Part shown: in pieces, positions 105-64,000 of the stretch | Layout of the letters: each line of letters starts with the position of its first letter | Numbering within the stretch: the stretch's first letter is position 1 | Assembly: GCA_022821985.1 (NCBI GenBank) | Contig: JAJECP010000036.1 | Span: 1 to 64,000 of the forward strand | Length of the DNA stretch: 64,000 bases | From: Acidimicrobiia bacterium | GTDB taxonomy: Bacteria; Actinomycetota; Acidimicrobiia; Acidimicrobiales; Poriferisodalaceae | Direction of reading: 5' to 3' | Notes under the pieces: model-generated | Database searches by the model: none | What the model saw: the letters and a program-made list of their open reading frames with translations, nothing else | What the model was told of the DNA's origin: nothing | Translations under genes and position numbers: made by a program

Positions 105-166
105 GCGGCAGGACCCTCTGCGACCAGCGATCCAGCAGGTCGCAACGTCGCAGAGTCCCCTGCCGC
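105..166. terminator. Imperfect 20-bp palindrome between convergent genes, containing one copy of a dispersed 35-bp repeat
   Basis: Arms 105-124 and 147-166 are inverted copies matching at 17 of 20 positions, with a 22-base loop. The hairpin sits between two convergent genes (ends at 83 and 188), so it could stop transcription from both sides. It has no T-tract, as is common in G+C-rich genomes. Bases 132-166, read on the minus strand, recur at 61546-61580 with 34 of 35 identities, so this is also a repeat family member. Confidence 0.6.
132..166 (-). repeat. Dispersed 35-bp repeat, copy 1
   Basis: The reverse complement of 132-166 begins GCGGCAGGGG and ends GACCTGCTGG. It matches 61546-61580 with a single difference. 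Here the repeat is one half-plus-loop of the palindrome at 105-166, so the complete unit appears to be about 60 bp. At the second site the matching arm is missing. Whether this is a REP-type element or an attachment-related sequence cannot be decided from two copies. Confidence 0.75.
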
Positions 167-6537: not shown

Positions 6538-8913
6538 TCAGTCGTAGATGAAGCCGAGTTCGGCGGGCGCGGGGAGCTCGCCTCCGATGTGGCCGTCGGC
6601 CCGGAGGCTCTTGATCTCGGCGGGGGAAAAGCGGGCTACCTCGGCGAAGACCTCGTCTGTGTGTTGATCGAAGCGGGGGGAAGGGCCCGCTTGGTTCGGG
6701 CGGACTCCATCCAGAGTGAACGGTGACGCGATGTGGCGCATGGGGCCTGTTACTGGGTGATCGACCAGCTCTATGCGGTTGGCGACTGGTTGGTGGTCGG
6801 GTGCGGTCCATGGGTCCCAGCAGAACTCGGTGCGGGCGCCGGCGGCGTGCAGCGCCGTTTGCAGGTCAGCGCGGGTCCGGGCCGGTTGGCCGCCGTTGTT
6901 CTTGATCTCTTCGAGCAGGCCCTCGATCACGTTGACGGCGTTGGGCCCTAGTGACGGATCGTGAGCGTCGCCGTCGGCGATTACGGCTAGGTATCCGTCG
7001 GTGCCTCTTATGAAGCCGCTCCAGGCGGTGTTGGGTTCCCGGTTTCCCATGCGGCCGATGTCTCGGCCGGTTGTGGAGGCGAGTACGAGTGCTTCGCCGC
7101 TGTGCTGCCAGGTTCCTTCTTGCTGGGAGACGTCGATTTCTATGCCTCGACCGGTGTGCTCGGCGTGGTGCAGGCCGCTCAGCAGGGCGAAACCGGCGGT
7201 GATGCCGGCGATCGGGTCGGGGAAGTAGATGTTGGAGATGCGGGCGCCTTCGTGCTCGTAGCCCTGCCGGTGACCCATCCCGCCCATGGCCTCGATGATC
7301 GAGCCGAATCCCACAGCGCCCGCATAGGGGCCGTCGACGCCGAACGCGGGCATGCGCACCAGCACGATGCGTGGGTTGACCTCGGCCAGCGTCTCGAAGT
7401 CGAGCCCGAGCTGGGGCAGCACGTGGGCCGAGAAGTTGGCGACCAGAGCGTCGCAGTTGCGCACCAGCTCCATGAAGGCGGCGCGGCCCTCGGGCGTGGC
7501 GAGCGTGACGACGCAGTCGCGCTTGCCCTTGTTGACGGCGTTGAAATGCCCGCCTGCCTCGTAGAAGCGATTGTCGTGGACGAGATGCTCGAGGCCGGGC
7601 GCCATGCCGTGGTCGTAGGGCCGCTGGGTGCGGAAGCCGTCGAAGGGGTTCTGCGCCTCGATCTTGATGACGTCGATGCCGAGCGGTGTGAGCAGGTTGC
7701 CGATGTACGGCCCGGCCCACGCAATGGTCATCTCGATCACCCGCAGCGCACGCGCGGGTCGCAGTGCCGCCGTGGGCGTATCGGCAGCCGGGCATGCGTC
7801 GGCACCCCGATCGCTCACTCGTTGCATCGGCACGGGCAGGCCTGGTGCGGCGAAGGGCTGGATGGGCGCCAAGGCGGTTGCTGCTGGTGTCTCGACTTCG
7901 CCGAGGAAGCCGCGGTCGGCGAGATGTTCGTCTGCCAGCGCGTCGAGCGGCGTCATCACCATGCCGACTGCCCAGGGCGTCTCGAGCGCGAACTGGAACA
8001 GCTCCCGCTTGGTGCGGGCGGCATACCAGGGCTCGATGACCTCGCGGATCTTGTCGATGTGGCGGGCTCGGCGGTGGCGGTGGCTCAACTCGGGATCGTC
8101 GATCCACTCGGGCATGCCGAGATGCAGGCACTGCATCTCCCAGTCGTCCCGCCGGATCGAACCCGGGCACACGTAGCCGTCGGCGCAGCGGATCGCACCC
8201 GACGGGTAGGCCGTGGGCGGGTGCGGCCCCACCGGCGGCCGGCGCCGCTGGCAGTGCAGCGAATCGCAATAGCAGAGCTCGACGGCAGTCAGCAGCGCCC
8301 CCAGCCACGACACGTCCACGTGCGTCTCGGGCCGTCGCCGGATGAGGTGCGCGGCCCAGGCGGCAAGACCGCCTGCGCAGTACTGGGCCTGCCAGCCCGG
8401 AAGGCGCAGCGGTTCGGCACCCGCGTCGCCGTTGAAGCCCAGGAAGCCCGTGGCGGTCTGCACCAGCAGCTCGTCGGCGATGACGCCAGGGTCGTCGGCA
8501 TCAGCACCCCAGGCCGTCACCGTCACGAGCTTGGGCACGCGTTCGCCCTCGGCCGCACCGGCGGCCATCCGCTGGGGATCCCACGGTCCGCCGGCAAGCC
8601 CGGCCAGCGTGTCGCTGGCGATCACCACGTCCGGCCACGACCCCTCCACGCTGTCGGCGGCGCAGTTCAGCTTCGCCGCATTCAGATGCACATACAGCGG
8701 GCTGATCTCATCGGGCCCCAGCGGGACATCGTCAACCGGTTGACTCCGTGCAGGGTCCCCGCCCGGCGGCTCCACCTTGACCACGGTGGCCCCCGCACCC
8801 GCCAGCAGCCGTCCGGCATACGGCCCTGCGATGCCGGTGGCCAGCTCCAGCACACGCATCCCCGCGAGCGGCGGCGGCACAGTCTCGGCGGCTCCATCGG
8901 CCGGGGCAGGCAT
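6538..8913 (-). CDS. Double-length CaiB/BaiF-type class III CoA-transferase
   Basis: About 791 residues form two tandem CoA-transferase family III modules. The N-half begins LAGMRVLELATGIAGPYAGR and the C-half begins ARALRVIEMTIAWAGPYIGN near residue 385. Single family members are about 400 residues. The C-half keeps the FPDPIAGITAGF segment, where the Asp is the acyl-anhydride nucleophile. The equivalent N-half segment reads QYCAGGLAAWAAHL and lacks that Asp, so only one half may be catalytic. The start is uncertain between ATG 8913 and ATG 8958. The family moves CoA between carboxylates, often in steroid, carnitine or bile-acid metabolism. A similar double protein lies at 17414-19813. Confidence 0.9.
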   Translation of the reverse strand: MPAPADGAAETVPPPLAGMRVLELATGIAGPYAGRLLAGAGATVVKVEPPGGDPARSQPVDDVPLGPDEISPLYVHLNAAKLNCAADSVEGSWPDVVIASDTLAGLAGGPWDPQRMAAGAAEGERVPKLVTVTAWGADADDPGVIADELLVQTATGFLGFNGDAGAEPLRLPGWQAQYCAGGLAAWAAHLIRRRPETHVDVSWLGALLTAVELCYCDSLHCQRRRPPVGPHPPTAYPSGAIRCADGYVCPGSIRRDDWEMQCLHLGMPEWIDDPELSHRHRRARHIDKIREVIEPWYAARTKRELFQFALETPWAVGMVMTPLDALADEHLADRGFLGEVETPAATALAPIQPFAAPGLPVPMQRVSDRGADACPAADTPTAALRPARALRVIEMTIAWAGPYIGNLLTPLGIDVIKIEAQNPFDGFRTQRPYDHGMAPGLEHLVHDNRFYEAGGHFNAVNKGKRDCVVTLATPEGRAAFMELVRNCDALVANFSAHVLPQLGLDFETLAEVNPRIVLVRMPAFGVDGPYAGAVGFGSIIEAMGGMGHRQGYEHEGARISNIYFPDPIAGITAGFALLSGLHHAEHTGRGIEIDVSQQEGTWQHSGEALVLASTTGRDIGRMGNREPNTAWSGFIRGTDGYLAVIADGDAHDPSLGPNAVNVIEGLLEEIKNNGGQPARTRADLQTALHAAGARTEFCWDPWTAPDHQPVANRIELVDHPVTGPMRHIASPFTLDGVRPNQAGPSPRFDQHTDEVFAEVARFSPAEIKSLRADGHIGGELPAPAELGFIYD

Positions 8914-26982: not shown

Positions 26983-27810
26983 ATGCCCAAACGCTCGCAA
27001 GCCCCAGTCTCGACTGATATCGCGACACGGTGCGAAGTCGGTCCTCGGGGTCGGCAGGAAGATCGCGTTCGCACAGTCGTGAACAACGACGGTTCGTGGA
27101 TGATGGCGGTGGCAGACGGGCTGGGCGGCCATCCGTTCGGAGATGAGGCGGCGCAGGCGGCGGTGGATGCGTTGCCAGAACGGATCAGCAGGCCCGCCGA
27201 GATGGCGGCGGCGTTCGATGCGGCCAACGCGGCGACGTGGGCGCTGCATCCGGAGATGAGGAGCCCCGACGAGGGTCTGTCGTCAGTGATCGCATTGACA
27301 ACGTTGGTGGTTGCAGCGTGGACTCCCCAGAGCGGCCTGTTGGTGTCGTGGGTGGGGGATTCGATGGCGTTCTTGGTGCCGGTAGCTGGCGGGCCGGGGT
27401 GGCACAGCACCCCGCACGGCGGTCCCATGGGATTCGTGAGCCGTGGCATCGGCGTGTTCCGTGCGGGTCATGGCGACGGTTACGAGCTGCCGCCTGGCCA
27501 TCTCGAGAATCTGAGCGACGATGTCCCGGCTGGACGTGTCGAGGGCTGGATCGACGATCAGGGGCTGCTGGTGGTGCTGGCGAGCGACGGACTGTTCGAC
27601 CCGGTCCTGATGGCTCACGACAGGGGCTGGTTCGGCGACGATCCCGACGACCTCAGCCTCGGCTTCGCGCTGCCGCCCGACCAGCGGGGCTCCGCCGATG
27701 CCGTGGCCGACACGTTGATGGACACCGCCCAGTTCGCCGGCCTGATCGACAACACCACCATCGCAGTGGCCCGCATCGCCGGAACTGGGAGTGGAGCTAA
27801 GGGGAATTGA
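26983..27810 (+). CDS. PP2C-family (PPM) protein serine/threonine phosphatase
   Basis: The 275-residue protein carries the PPM motifs: VGPRGRQEDRV (motif 1, with QED in place of the common NQD), VADGLGGHPFGDEAA (motif 2), VSWVGDSMAF, VVLASDGLFD with a metal Asp, and DNTTIAV at the end. It would remove phosphate from Ser/Thr residues in a Mn/Mg-dependent way. No kinase gene is nearby. The last 19 bases, including the stop, overlap the 3' end of the convergent tRNA-Ala gene. Confidence 0.88.
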   Translation: MPKRSQAPVSTDIATRCEVGPRGRQEDRVRTVVNNDGSWMMAVADGLGGHPFGDEAAQAAVDALPERISRPAEMAAAFDAANAATWALHPEMRSPDEGLSSVIALTTLVVAAWTPQSGLLVSWVGDSMAFLVPVAGGPGWHSTPHGGPMGFVSRGIGVFRAGHGDGYELPPGHLENLSDDVPAGRVEGWIDDQGLLVVLASDGLFDPVLMAHDRGWFGDDPDDLSLGFALPPDQRGSADAVADTLMDTAQFAGLIDNTTIAVARIAGTGSGAKGN

Positions 27811-27864
27811 ACCCCTGACCTCTTCCATGCCATGGAAGCGCTCTACCAACTGAGCTATAGCCCC
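27792..27864 (-). tRNA. tRNA-Ala (anticodon GGC)
   Basis: The minus strand folds as a cloverleaf of 73 bases. The acceptor GGGGCTA pairs with TAGCTCC, the D-arm includes AGCTCAGTTGGTAGAGC, and the anticodon stem CTTCC/GGAAG encloses ATGGCAT with anticodon GGC. The T-arm is GGGGTTCAATTCCCC. The discriminator is A, and no CCA is encoded. The G3-U70 wobble in the acceptor is the identity element of alanine tRNA. The 3' end overlaps the stop of the PP2C gene. Confidence 0.96.
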
Positions 27865-60635: not shown

Positions 60636-61517
60636 GTGCGCTCAGGCTTTGTGACCCTCGTGGGGCGCCCGAATGCAGGCAAGTCGACATTGCTGAACTG
60701 CTTGGTGGGCAGCAAGATCAGCATCACCTCCGCCAAGCCCCAGACCACTCGGCTGCGTGTCATGGGCGTGCGGCACCTTCCCGACGCGCAGATCGTTTTC
60801 GTCGACACGCCCGGCATCGCCAAGCCGGTGACGCCGCTGGGCGAGCAGCTCAACGAGACCGCCCGCACCGCCGTCAACGAGCTGGAGCCGGTGGACGTGA
60901 TCTGCATGGTGCTCGATGCCACAGCGCCGCTCGGTCGCGGCGACCGGCTCATCTGGGAGTCGCTGCCGTCGGGCATCTCCAAGGTGGTTGCAGTCACGAA
61001 ATGCGACCGGGCGTCGAGGGCCCAAGTGCTGGATCAGCTTTCTGCCGCTGGGGAGTTCGACGCCGATGCGTATTTCCCCGTGTCGGGAGTGAGCGGCGAA
61101 GGCACTGATGCCCTGATCAATCACTTGGCGGCCGGACTGGACGAGGGTCCTGCGTACTTTCCTCCCGAGAGCATCACCGATCTGCCCGACGCGTGGCGCA
61201 TCTCCGAGGCGGTGCGCGAGCAGTTGCTGGCGCGGCTGGGCGACGAACTGCCCTACAGCATCGCGGTCCGTGTCACCGAGTGGGAGCCCGACCGCATCCG
61301 CTGCGACATTGCCGTGGAGCGGCCCTCGCAGAAGGGCATCGTGATTGGCAAGGGCGGGCGGATGCTGCGAGACGTAGGCACAGCGGCACGCCGCGAGCTG
61401 GGCCTCGACGGTGTCTATCTGGAGCTGCGGGTGCGTGTAGAGCCGGACTGGCAGCGCACCCCTGACGCGGTCGCGCGCATGCTCGCTCCTAACGCCCCTT
61501 CCGAGCCCTCCGATTGA
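60636..61517 (+). CDS. era: GTPase Era
   Basis: The 293-residue protein has G1 GRPNAGKST, the switch KISITSAKPQTTR, G3 DTPG and a C-terminal KH domain (GIVIGKGGRMLRDVGTAARR). G4 reads TKCD in place of NKxD, a change seen in other actinobacteria. It binds 16S rRNA and guides 30S assembly. GTG 60636 leaves 14 bases after corC. It is the last gene before the integrative element. Confidence 0.95.
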   Translation: MRSGFVTLVGRPNAGKSTLLNCLVGSKISITSAKPQTTRLRVMGVRHLPDAQIVFVDTPGIAKPVTPLGEQLNETARTAVNELEPVDVICMVLDATAPLGRGDRLIWESLPSGISKVVAVTKCDRASRAQVLDQLSAAGEFDADAYFPVSGVSGEGTDALINHLAAGLDEGPAYFPPESITDLPDAWRISEAVREQLLARLGDELPYSIAVRVTEWEPDRIRCDIAVERPSQKGIVIGKGGRMLRDVGTAARRELGLDGVYLELRVRVEPDWQRTPDAVARMLAPNAPSEPSD

Positions 61518-61545
61518 CGACGTACAGATGTCATAGCGGAGGAGG

Positions 61546-61580
61546 GCGGCAGGGAACTCTGCGACGTTGCGACCTGCTGG
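61546..61580 (+). repeat. Dispersed 35-bp repeat, copy 2 (half of the palindromic unit), next to the integrase
   Basis: Matches the minus strand of 132-166 with one mismatch (34 of 35). Unlike copy 1 it is not followed by the inverted arm: homology stops right after CTGCTGG at 61580. It lies 28 bases after the era stop and 180 before the integrase start, where an attachment site would be expected. The remainder of 61518-61759 holds no gene; an inverted repeat GGTAT/ATACC lies just before the integrase. Confidence 0.75.
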
Positions 61581-61731
61581 TTTGCAATCGCGCGAAGCCG
61601 GTAGGCGCTCGGCGGACGCTGGCGGACACCTACGAACAGACAAACAAGCAGATCAGACGCTATTTCTGTGTGTCGCGGAGTCCGCAGCCGTGCGCCAGCG
61701 TGCCACGCCGTTCGCCGTCGTTATGGTATAT

Positions 61732-61751
61732 TCGTTGGCATACCGGCGAAA
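61732..61751. promoter_or_regulatory. Inverted repeat upstream of the integrase (possible operator)
   Basis: GGTAT and ATACC form a short inverted repeat separated by 10 bases (ATTCGTTGGC), set in a locally A+T-rich spot with a TATATT-like -10 sequence. It lies 10-30 bases before the integrase ATG at 61760. This would suit an autoregulated integrase promoter, but the repeat is short. Confidence 0.35.
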
Positions 61752-61759
61752 GGGATGCC

Positions 61760-62992
61760 ATGCCGAAGCTCAGCAAGCCGCTCACGACGAAGTTCGTGCG
61801 CGACGCCAAGCCCAAGCCCGACGGCCGGCCCGCCACCTACGGCGACGGCCGCTACGGGCTTGCGCTCAAAGTCGAATGGGGCAAGTCGGGCCACATCCTC
61901 AAGCGCTGGGTTCAGAAGGTCACCCTGCCCGACGGGCGGCGCAGCTTCGTCGGCCACGGCAATGCCGACCTTGTGCCGCTGGCACAAGCAAGGCGGCTCG
62001 CGGCGGACACTGCCGCCGCGGCGGGCCGCGGCGAGGATGTCCGCACCCGCAAGACAGCCCAGCCGGGCGCACTCACATTCGAGGCGGCGTGGCGCGCGAT
62101 GCACGACAAGATGTCAGCGGCCAACAGCGCCGCCCGCACCGTCGAAGGCCGAGCGCAAAGGTTCCGCGACTACATGGCCGACACGCTGGGCACCAAGCCC
62201 GTCGCCGCCGTCACTCACCAAGACATCGTGCGCGTGCTTGAGCCGATCTGGCACGACAAGCCCGGAGTAAGCAAGAACGTGCGCTTGGACATCCTGCGGG
62301 CGCTGTCGGGCGCAATCGGCCAAGGTCTCGACGCGATGCCGACATCGAAAGAGGCGCTCGAAGCCACGCTCGGGCCGAAGCAACGCCGCGAAGTCAAGCG
62401 GCGCAAAGCCGTTCGCTACGGCGACATTCCGAACGCTGTTGCTGCCATCTTGGCTAGCGGATCGGCGGCGCAGGCCAAAGCGGCAACGCTGTTCACGATT
62501 CTGACAGCGGGGCGCAGCATCGAGACTCGCCGCGCTGACTGGGCCGAATTCAACTTCGACACTGCGGTATGGACACAAGACGGCGAGCGCATGAAAGCCG
62601 GAAAGACTCACCGCGTGCCGCTTTCGGCACCGGCGCTGAGGCTGCTCGAAGCCGTCGGCATCGCACAGCAAGGCCAAGTGTTCGCCGGACTTGCCGACTC
62701 GGCCATGCGCACCGTCGCCAAGGCTGCCGGACTGACAGACGTCGACGGCGAGCAAGCCGACGTTCACGGCTTCCGCACATCGTTCGCAGAATGGGCGCAG
62801 GAAACAGGCCAAGACGAGACGGCTGCCAAGCTCGCCATAGCGCACGGCAACGGCGCACAGTCAGACTCTGACGCTGCCTACTTCCGCAGCGACAAGCTCG
62901 ACGCCCGCCGCGAGATCATGGCCGCATGGGCCAGCTACGCCATGAGCGCCGTAGAGGATCATGAGGCAGCATGGGCGGCGTTGGCTGACTGA
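61760..62992 (+). CDS. P4-type tyrosine recombinase / integrase
   Basis: The 410-residue protein has an N-terminal arm-binding domain (residues 1-95, YGLALKVEWGKSGHILKRWV, LPDGRRSFVGHG; DUF4102-like). A core-binding domain follows (about 105-200). The catalytic domain has Arg252 (LTAGRSIETR), His336-x-x-Arg339 (HGFR), His362 and nucleophile Tyr374 (AAYFRSD). It integrates an element at an attachment site. GGG at 7-9 bases precedes ATG 61760. All catalytic residues are present, so it may be active. Confidence 0.92.
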   Translation: MPKLSKPLTTKFVRDAKPKPDGRPATYGDGRYGLALKVEWGKSGHILKRWVQKVTLPDGRRSFVGHGNADLVPLAQARRLAADTAAAAGRGEDVRTRKTAQPGALTFEAAWRAMHDKMSAANSAARTVEGRAQRFRDYMADTLGTKPVAAVTHQDIVRVLEPIWHDKPGVSKNVRLDILRALSGAIGQGLDAMPTSKEALEATLGPKQRREVKRRKAVRYGDIPNAVAAILASGSAAQAKAATLFTILTAGRSIETRRADWAEFNFDTAVWTQDGERMKAGKTHRVPLSAPALRLLEAVGIAQQGQVFAGLADSAMRTVAKAAGLTDVDGEQADVHGFRTSFAEWAQETGQDETAAKLAIAHGNGAQSDSDAAYFRSDKLDARREIMAAWASYAMSAVEDHEAAWAALAD

Positions 62993-63011
62993 CACAGCGC
63001 CACAGCGACAC

Positions 63012-63049
63012 AAGCCGCCAGAACGCCGCTGGGGCGCTTCTGGCGGCTT
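63012..63049. terminator. Strong hairpin after the integrase gene
   Basis: AAGCCGCCAGAA at 63012-63023 pairs perfectly with TTCTGGCGGCTT at 63038-63049, and further G:C pairs close the loop. It begins 20 bases after the integrase stop. There is no T-tract. It would end transcription from both sides, as the next gene is convergent. Confidence 0.7.
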
Positions 63050-63057
63050 CGTCGCGT

Positions 63058-63139
63058 CAAGGCACGCTGTCCAAGCTGCTACGCCGCCAGCAGCCTCACA
63101 ACGCCGCTGCAGCGTCTCAGGCTGCGGCGGCGTGCCTTG
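63058..63139. repeat. Large inverted repeat / stem-loop in the integrase-cargo gap
   Basis: CAAGGCACGC (63058-63067) is the perfect reverse complement of GCGTGCCTTG (63130-63139). Inside, CCGCC/GCAGCCT and AGGCTGCGGCGG add a further near-perfect stem. The spacing leaves an asymmetric internal loop. It could be a second terminator, a structured RNA or a recombination site; nothing decides between them. Confidence 0.6.
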
Positions 63140-63184
63140 GTACGCCCAGCGGCTCAGGACGCGCCCAGCAGCCTCAGAACGGCG

Positions 63185-63448
63185 CTAGGCGTTGCGCTGG
63201 CGCAGTACGGCCAAGTCGCCGCCTTCTATCCATCTTGTCGGCGTGTCGGCAATCAGTCCGCTGCCTAGGCCGTAGTCGAGCCTCAGCCGCAGGACATGGT
63301 CGACGGCGTAAGCGTTATGCACATTGTGAGCACCCGCGTCGTCGTGATGCACGCGCAAGCTGTCCGGCTCGCCTACTGCCCAAGCAGCCGTATTGATGCT
63401 GCCGCCGCACACAGCGCAGAACAGCGTCTCGGCAGGCTCGGCGCTCAC
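63185..63448 (-). CDS. Small unknown protein of the integrative element
   Basis: The 87-residue protein begins MSAEPAETLFCAVCGGSIN, with a CxxC like a zinc knuckle. It holds LRVHHDDAGAHNVHNAYAVDHVL, rich in His and Asp. A metal-binding or HNH-like role is conceivable but no full motif is present. GTG 63448 overlaps the upstream stop in GTGA, so it is translated with the preceding gene. No function is claimed. Confidence 0.6.
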   Translation of the reverse strand: MSAEPAETLFCAVCGGSINTAAWAVGEPDSLRVHHDDAGAHNVHNAYAVDHVLRLRLDYGLGSGLIADTPTRWIEGGDLAVLRQRNA

Positions 63449-63945
63449 GGCAAGTTGGCGGCGGCGTAGGCCGCAGTGTCGCCTTGCTCGGCGCGTGACA
63501 CAAGCTCCAACGATGCCCTGAAGTCGCCAGCGGCGGCAGCCGTGGCCACGTCCGCCGTGGACGGCGCAGACGCGGCGGCGGGCGCAGCCTCAGCGTCGCC
63601 GCCGCCTTTGACGTCGCGGAATATCTGCTCCGCGATCCGGTCGGCATTAGCGCGCTGAGCCGGTGCGGCGGCAGCGTCGGCTTCTGACTGCTCACGCCAG
63701 TAAGCCTCGCTGTCGGCAAGCGTGCCGCTGGCAGGCTGATTCAGCACGTCCGCGCTGGCCGCAGCGTCGAATGCTGCCGCTGACTGGCGGCGAAGCTCGG
63801 CGGCTTGCTCGGCCAGCGCCGCCGACTCCGCGGTGTGGAATCCGCCGTTGTTCTGACGGCGGACTCTCGCCGCTGTCTCCAGCCGAGTGGCTGCGCTGTC
63901 GGCTTCTGCGAAGTTCAGCCCGGCAGTTGTTTCGGTAGTGGTCAT
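63445..63945 (-). CDS. Ala-rich helical unknown protein of the integrative element
   Basis: The 166-residue protein is very rich in Ala, Glu, Gln and Arg, predicted mostly helical or coiled (ESAALAEQAAELRRQSAAAF). Stretches such as GDAEAAPAAASAPST are disordered. It begins MTTTETTAGLNFAEADSAAT with GGAGG 10 bases before the ATG. Size, composition and place before a small protein are reminiscent of phage head or scaffold genes, but that is a guess. Confidence 0.6.
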   Translation of the reverse strand: MTTTETTAGLNFAEADSAATRLETAARVRRQNNGGFHTAESAALAEQAAELRRQSAAAFDAAASADVLNQPASGTLADSEAYWREQSEADAAAAPAQRANADRIAEQIFRDVKGGGDAEAAPAAASAPSTADVATAAAAGDFRASLELVSRAEQGDTAAYAAANLP

Positions 63946-64000
63946 GTCTCTGATTCCTCCAAAAGTTCGGTTTCTTCGAGTGTGATTGTCTCAATGTCGC

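Follow-up and report, generated by a model that had tools for sequence, protein, structure and literature searches.

Why does one arm of a palindromic repeat stop abruptly where an integrative element begins, just after the era gene of an Acidimicrobiia bacterium? The question is raised by positions 61546-61580 of the window, i.e. the first 64,000 nt of contig C5 of the source genome (G000), where a half repeat abuts an island carrying a tyrosine integrase gene. Our answer is that the island very probably arose by site-specific recombination into the loop of a full palindrome, this loop serving a family of related elements of the genus as their bacterial attachment site (attB); judging by the sequences, the attachment site of the family is the palindrome loop rather than the era locus. 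The evidence consists of a split palindrome, an intact empty site, a shared core, an element attachment site (attP) made of an inverted repeat, an integrase gene next to the left attachment site (attL) and the recurrence of the junction at other loci. Below, G001-G010 are the other genomes of the genus, C designates a contig and L a numbered locus.

A palindrome split after era

As the first-pass annotation had stated, 61546-61580 matches the reverse complement of 132-166 at 34 of 35 bases, with one mismatch. A repeat search of the window set the two arms at 127-167 and 61545-61585 (41 nt, 93% complementary), and a 24-nt sub-pattern, with up to 3 mismatches allowed, was found at two sites only (0 expected from 100 shuffles). 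Copy 1, at about 90-183 on the forward strand, is a full and unoccupied imperfect palindrome with an attB-like core, GCGAT-CCAGCAG-GTCGC, at 127-143 (forward strand); the same core is seen at occupied sites. Copy 2 is a half palindrome (61528-61580, reverse strand) equivalent to positions 43-94 of the 94-nt repeat. It ends after CTGCTGG at 61580, again in agreement with the annotation, and the element begins at 61581, the left junction being 61580/61581. This half forms the left side of attL, the core region of which, GCGAC-CTGCTGG-TTTGC, covers 61569-61585 (forward strand) and includes the 7-bp overlap CTGCTGG at 61574-61580; both were defined by comparing attL, the right attachment site (attR) and the empty site of a relative. 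The left chromosomal flank is era, a 293-aa open reading frame (ORF) at 60636-61517 (forward strand) coding for a GTPase, with orthologs in all 11 genomes of the genus (85-100% identity).

A 64-nt repeat query gave 22 matches in the whole of G000 at E<=10, and 13 at E<=1e-7. Two of these 13 represent one place, the end of C28 duplicating the first 141 bases of C5; the half repeat on C28 was considered as the other end of the island and rejected, since it only reflects this 141-nt overlap of the two contigs in the assembly.

The missing arm was found on C22, at about 89000, between the other end of the island and a helicase gene, which is the gene that follows era in relatives, as its convergent neighbour. 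The right boundary reads ...TTTTTCGCAAACTGTTGG|ATCGCGGGAGCAGAGGGCACTGCCGTCC..., and the attR core, GCAAA-CTGTTGG-ATCGC, lies at C22:89013-89029. The annotation had placed an arm of the form ATCGCTGGTCGCAG...CCTGCCGCC at the right end of the element, beyond 64000. There is indeed an arm at that end, outside the window, but it has the sequence of a subfamily variant instead of the predicted one and is carried by a different contig, the assembly having been broken by an insertion sequence (IS). C5 ends at 66158, inside this IS of ~1.0 kb (end portion at C5:66022-66158), and the end of C22 consists of the right end of this type of IS, a full copy of which, with both ends, is present on C31. The left end of the IS has 9 exact copies in G000, several of them at contig ends; some assembly breaks, including the division of the island between C5 and C22, are thus due to a multi-copy IS. 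If one IS copy links the two contigs, the island is about 12.3 kb long (4.4 + 1.0 + 6.8).

The closest relative, G008 (Era 95% identical), has an intact palindrome after era, and this empty site reads GCGAC-CTGCTGG-ATCGC. In G007 there is only the outer tip of the palindrome, an apparent remnant, and no repeat was found after era in the other eight genomes; the same half repeat was found there in none of the ten relatives. The earlier proposal that a full palindrome stood after era before the insertion is therefore upheld by the G008 site. The attP core deduced from attL and attR is GCAAA-CTGTTGG-TTTGC, a perfect inverted repeat around 7 bases, and a 7-bp direct-repeat core matching attB is present at both island ends, with one mismatch between attL and attR. 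It had also been proposed that the element recombined within the loop and left half of the repeat on each side: both halves were found, but the crossover, at the CTGCTGG core, lies on an edge of the loop.

That the half repeat is a palindrome decayed by chance at the island edge, the true attachment site being elsewhere, e.g. at the 3' end of era, is hardly credible. Some palindromes are indeed decayed or truncated where there is no island (e.g. L014, L017 and L092-L094), but here the complementary half was found at the opposite end of the island and, put together, the two halves reproduce the palindrome of G008, which refutes this explanation for G000; era is moreover intact, and islands of the family found elsewhere also sit at the palindrome.

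The same junction at other loci

The attR-type pattern GCAAACTG-N(1-3)-GATCGC gave 8 matches in 6 of the 11 genus genomes, and 0 with the reversed control. At six of them a half palindrome follows (G000:C22, G002:C59, G007:C16, G007:C126, G008:C33 and G008:C148), and at two it does not (G009:C55 and G005:C74). Beyond G000, there are therefore five half-palindrome junctions in three other genomes; since their flanking genes differ, the palindrome is the feature that the loci share. An island end, ...GCTGACCTGCGGGTTTCAGCAAACTG, is common to these five loci with small changes (29-36-nt ends), and the element-side DNA shows homology between G000:C22 and each of G008:C148 (83.7% over 172 nt), G007:C126 and G007:C16. 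G001:C92 has a half palindrome of attL type, likewise bordered by TTTGC, next to a helicase gene that is present, whole or broken, in 4 of the 11 genomes (G000, G001, G002 and G008). Two other candidates were discarded: the attL-type match at G002:C93 is at a gene end and not beside a half palindrome, and the match at G005:C41 is due to chance, no half palindrome being present there.

Pairs of occupied and empty sites were obtained not only at era (G000 versus G008) but also for G008:C33 (versus G007:C35), for G007:C126 (versus intact palindromes in G002:C67 and G000:C18) and for G007:C16 (versus intact palindromes in G003:C28 and L159), so that three of the five additional loci have an intact orthologous palindrome. 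A row opposite G002:C59 (L112) was not counted, because it is not orthologous and only the repeat matched.

Several points weigh against integration by one clean mechanism everywhere. In G000 itself the cores differ (CTGCTGG in attL versus CTGTTGG in attR), and C5 and C22 are unjoined in the assembly, their link via the IS being unproven. Among the genomes compared, G008:C148 has no orthologous empty site, and the only ortholog of G002:C59 is a right-arm remnant (G000:C34). The core is shorter by one base at G002:C59 and at G007:C16. G008:C116, which is the left flank of the G008:C33 island, breaks off at CTCTGCGAC, 15 nt short of the end of the core. No integrase was found in the DNA fetched at any of the five other attR loci, and the sister islands look decayed. 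Finally, G001:C46 (L266, around 7830-7850) joins a half palindrome to the interior of an element helicase gene exactly at a shared CTGCTGG, either by a pseudo-att event or by microhomology. The irregular ends and shorter cores fit later deletions or imprecise events. The fragmented assemblies of these metagenome-assembled genomes (MAGs) are a further weak point.

Could homologous or microhomology-mediated recombination between dispersed repeats have made the half palindromes, with the CTGCTGG edge as the short homology? The G001:C46 junction, where CTGCTGG is native to the helicase gene, and the cores that are one base different at some loci would be in line with this. The conserved element end GCAAACTG beside the core at six loci argues against it, and so do the inverted-repeat attP of G000, GCAAACTGTTGGTTTGC, with its neighbouring integrase, and the 0 matches of the reversed control; we consider this explanation very improbable and retain site-specific recombination.

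A dispersed palindrome of the genus

The repeat is an imperfect palindrome of ~94 nt, dispersed in many copies in all 11 genomes of the genus, which extends to the whole genus the earlier remark that it is a dispersed repeat. A 94-nt query gave matches in 12 of 41 genomes, i.e. the 11 of the genus plus one weak match among the 30 others, with 7 to 45 matches per genus genome (a figure that includes reverse self-matches of the palindrome). In a collection of 84,980 species, an exact 25-nt core pattern was found in 90 stretches, and each of the 80 stretches listed belongs to a MAG with the label Acidimicrobiia, Acidimicrobiales, Acidimicrobiaceae or Microthrixaceae. By hand count, exact-core copies number about 1 to 37 per genome and 117 in total. 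The palindrome is missing at the orthologs, in L137 and G000:C28, of one G004 locus. The repeat core had no match in viral contigs.

From 57 aligned short copies, the architecture is one of ~28-bp arms around a loop containing GCGATCCRGCWGGTCGC. Conservation, calculated on 56 copies (L097, which has an internal deletion, was dropped), falls from 94.5% in the loop to 89.7% in the arms and 68.6% in the 3' tail. When ORFs were called by a rough method, 62 copies out of 73 were intergenic and 11 overlapped an ORF call, 8 further copies being left out because they were too close to a locus edge. Convergent gene pairs flank 23 of the 62 intergenic copies, compared with 50 of the 228 gene pairs that make up the baseline, taken from 40 of these loci. 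RNAalifold run on a MAFFT alignment gave a poor structure of 9 pairs. With a hand-set stem of 29 pairs, 84.1% of the cells were paired and 40 were double-change cells (shuffle mean 11.4, maximum 19); two other counts were within the shuffle range, namely 10 stem pairs showing a double change (maximum in shuffles 11) and 29 extra pair types (maximum in shuffles 29). The stem is probably maintained, on the strength of these alignments, which do not prove that it acts as RNA, and the hairpin gave only sub-threshold matches of microRNA type in Rfam.

Are these repeats a host feature adopted by the integrase, or products of the islands, such as solo att sites or scars? The second possibility, which we regard as unlikely without dismissing it, would agree with the confinement of the repeat and of the element family to one shared genus and with the conservation profile, since conservation is highest in the loop, where the att core lies. 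However, there are 117 exact-core palindromes for 8 occupied loci, G005 has 37 palindrome places and no occupied site was found in it, and an att core does not need a 28-bp stem. It is also doubtful, and slightly more so, that the palindrome and the element family have adapted to each other, a mobile hairpin peculiar to the genus spreading ready-made attB sites in intergenic space with a stem that matters for recombination. An integrase preferring an extruded or single-stranded hairpin, by analogy with the attC sites of integrons, would be one such role for the stem. Under such co-adaptation, the site would have a second passenger, a 72-nt loop module situated within about a base of the core edge.

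This module of ~72 nt, found in the loop beside the att core, exists in seven related copies in four genomes (G000, G004, G008 and G010): G000:C23:144773-144940 (L013), L083-L087 and L089. Several orthologous places have the short form of the palindrome instead (L013 long versus L042, L202 and L055; L083 long versus L044 and L103). The module was considered as a mini-element of the same enzyme and rejected, the core not being duplicated. At one orthologous place, the orientation of the palindrome is flipped between species, tails included (L087 at G008:C40 versus L052 at G007:C170 and L032 at G006:C10). In L002 (G000:C1:133160-133316) and L096 (G004:C14:46129-46290), a half palindrome running to GGT is followed by a 17-19-nt spacer and then by a full palindrome in the same orientation.

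The island, its integrase and comparable systems

The left part of the element covers 61581-64000 of the window (forward strand) and runs on to about C5:66020, where the IS begins; the other part is on C22. Its integrase (61760-62992, forward strand, 410 aa) has the Arm-DNA-bind_3, Phage_int_M and Phage_integrase domains, all three above the curated Pfam cut-off, and the gene starts 180 bp from the core, inside the island. The closest relative within the genus is in G009 only (46% identical), the others being 31-37% identical; two of these genus relatives sit at a transfer-messenger RNA (tmRNA) and at a tRNA, unlike the present one. No match to the integrase was found in viral contigs or in PDB. 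A further ORF at 63445-63945 (reverse strand) has no Pfam match and no assigned family. Read backwards, C22 shows a D5/P4-family primase (TIGR01613, 165.8 bits for a cut-off of 108.7; D5_N also matched), a WhiB-like protein and other ORFs, then the right junction at about C22:89027. The att site of the island is intergenic and is not a tRNA or tmRNA gene; the window has a single tRNA, at 27791-27864.

The HNH protein of the element, encoded at L024:4078-4830 (reverse strand), has a weak, far sub-threshold match to Cas9d in the HNH region only. Another element ORF (L082:2299-3966, reverse strand) contains a long Gly-Thr repeat; its start is signal-like and resembles a protein encoded next to the attR of G007:C126. 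A motif spotted by eye, GCAGGTCA/TGACCTGC, is present upstream of several genus integrases (L068, L070-L073 and L077) and near the shared attR end; it is possibly an arm-type site.

In the mechanism that we propose, an element of ~12 kb that encodes a P4-family primase along with its tyrosine integrase would enter by conservative site-specific recombination between attP, GCAAA-CTGTTGG-TTTGC, and attB, GCGAC-CTGCTGG-ATCGC, the latter in the palindrome loop between era and the convergent helicase gene. Insertion would split the palindrome and leave one arm at each island end. The integrase next to attL would be the enzyme responsible, an attP circle would form, and the process may be active now or have been so formerly. 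Each genome would offer the family many, mostly intergenic, landing sites, and such targeting would spare genes. Loop targeting would account for the half repeats at island edges, and one element family would gain many sites, with different islands at different loci of sister species, for which the palindrome appears to act as a set of ready-made landing sites. Its copies would also constitute a natural set of attB variants for the study of integrase specificity.

Tyrosine-integrase islands are usually credited with one or a few targets, and the enzyme of the filamentous phage Nf1, considered below, is an IS110/Piv-like recombinase. The customary targets of tyrosine-integrase islands are tRNA or tmRNA genes or the ends of housekeeping genes (Islander, PMC4383910; targets of integrative and conjugative elements, PMC4701971). 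Our island resembles P4-type islands in its integrase domain make-up, the location of the integrase beside att and its P4-family primase; it differs in its target, theirs being usually, though not necessarily, a tRNA or tmRNA gene. Repetitive extragenic palindromic (REP) sequences are described as targets of ISPsy8, ISPa11, ISPpu9, ISPpu10, ISRm22 and ISRm19 (PMC1525189). There too, dispersed and mostly intergenic palindromes are specific targets of mobile elements, but the agent is an IS transposase, whereas here it would be a ~12-kb tyrosine-integrase element with att cores and a conservative split. The dispersion in intergenic space is also reminiscent of REPs and their associated tyrosine transposases (RAYTs), with the difference that the Y1 transposase PF01797, the mark of RAYTs, was found in none of the 11 genus genomes (the control search was positive in 5 of 14). 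In Neisseria meningitidis, PMC3898611 reports integration of the Nf1 filamentous phage (meningococcal disease-associated, MDA) in dRS3 repeats, which are 20 bp long and present in 646-725 copies per listed genome (269-327 for the targeted subtype). In both cases the chromosomal target is a dispersed repeat made of inverted ends around a spacer, with many landing sites per genome; the invader is a filamentous phage there and a tyrosine-integrase element here (PMC3898611). A literature search, judged by titles and abstract openings and with most subscription papers outside its coverage, found no tyrosine-integrase element using a dispersed palindrome. Dispersed repeats were already known as targets of IS elements and of a Neisseria phage (PMC1525189, PMC3898611), and what appears to be new is a family of tyrosine-integrase islands that uses them.
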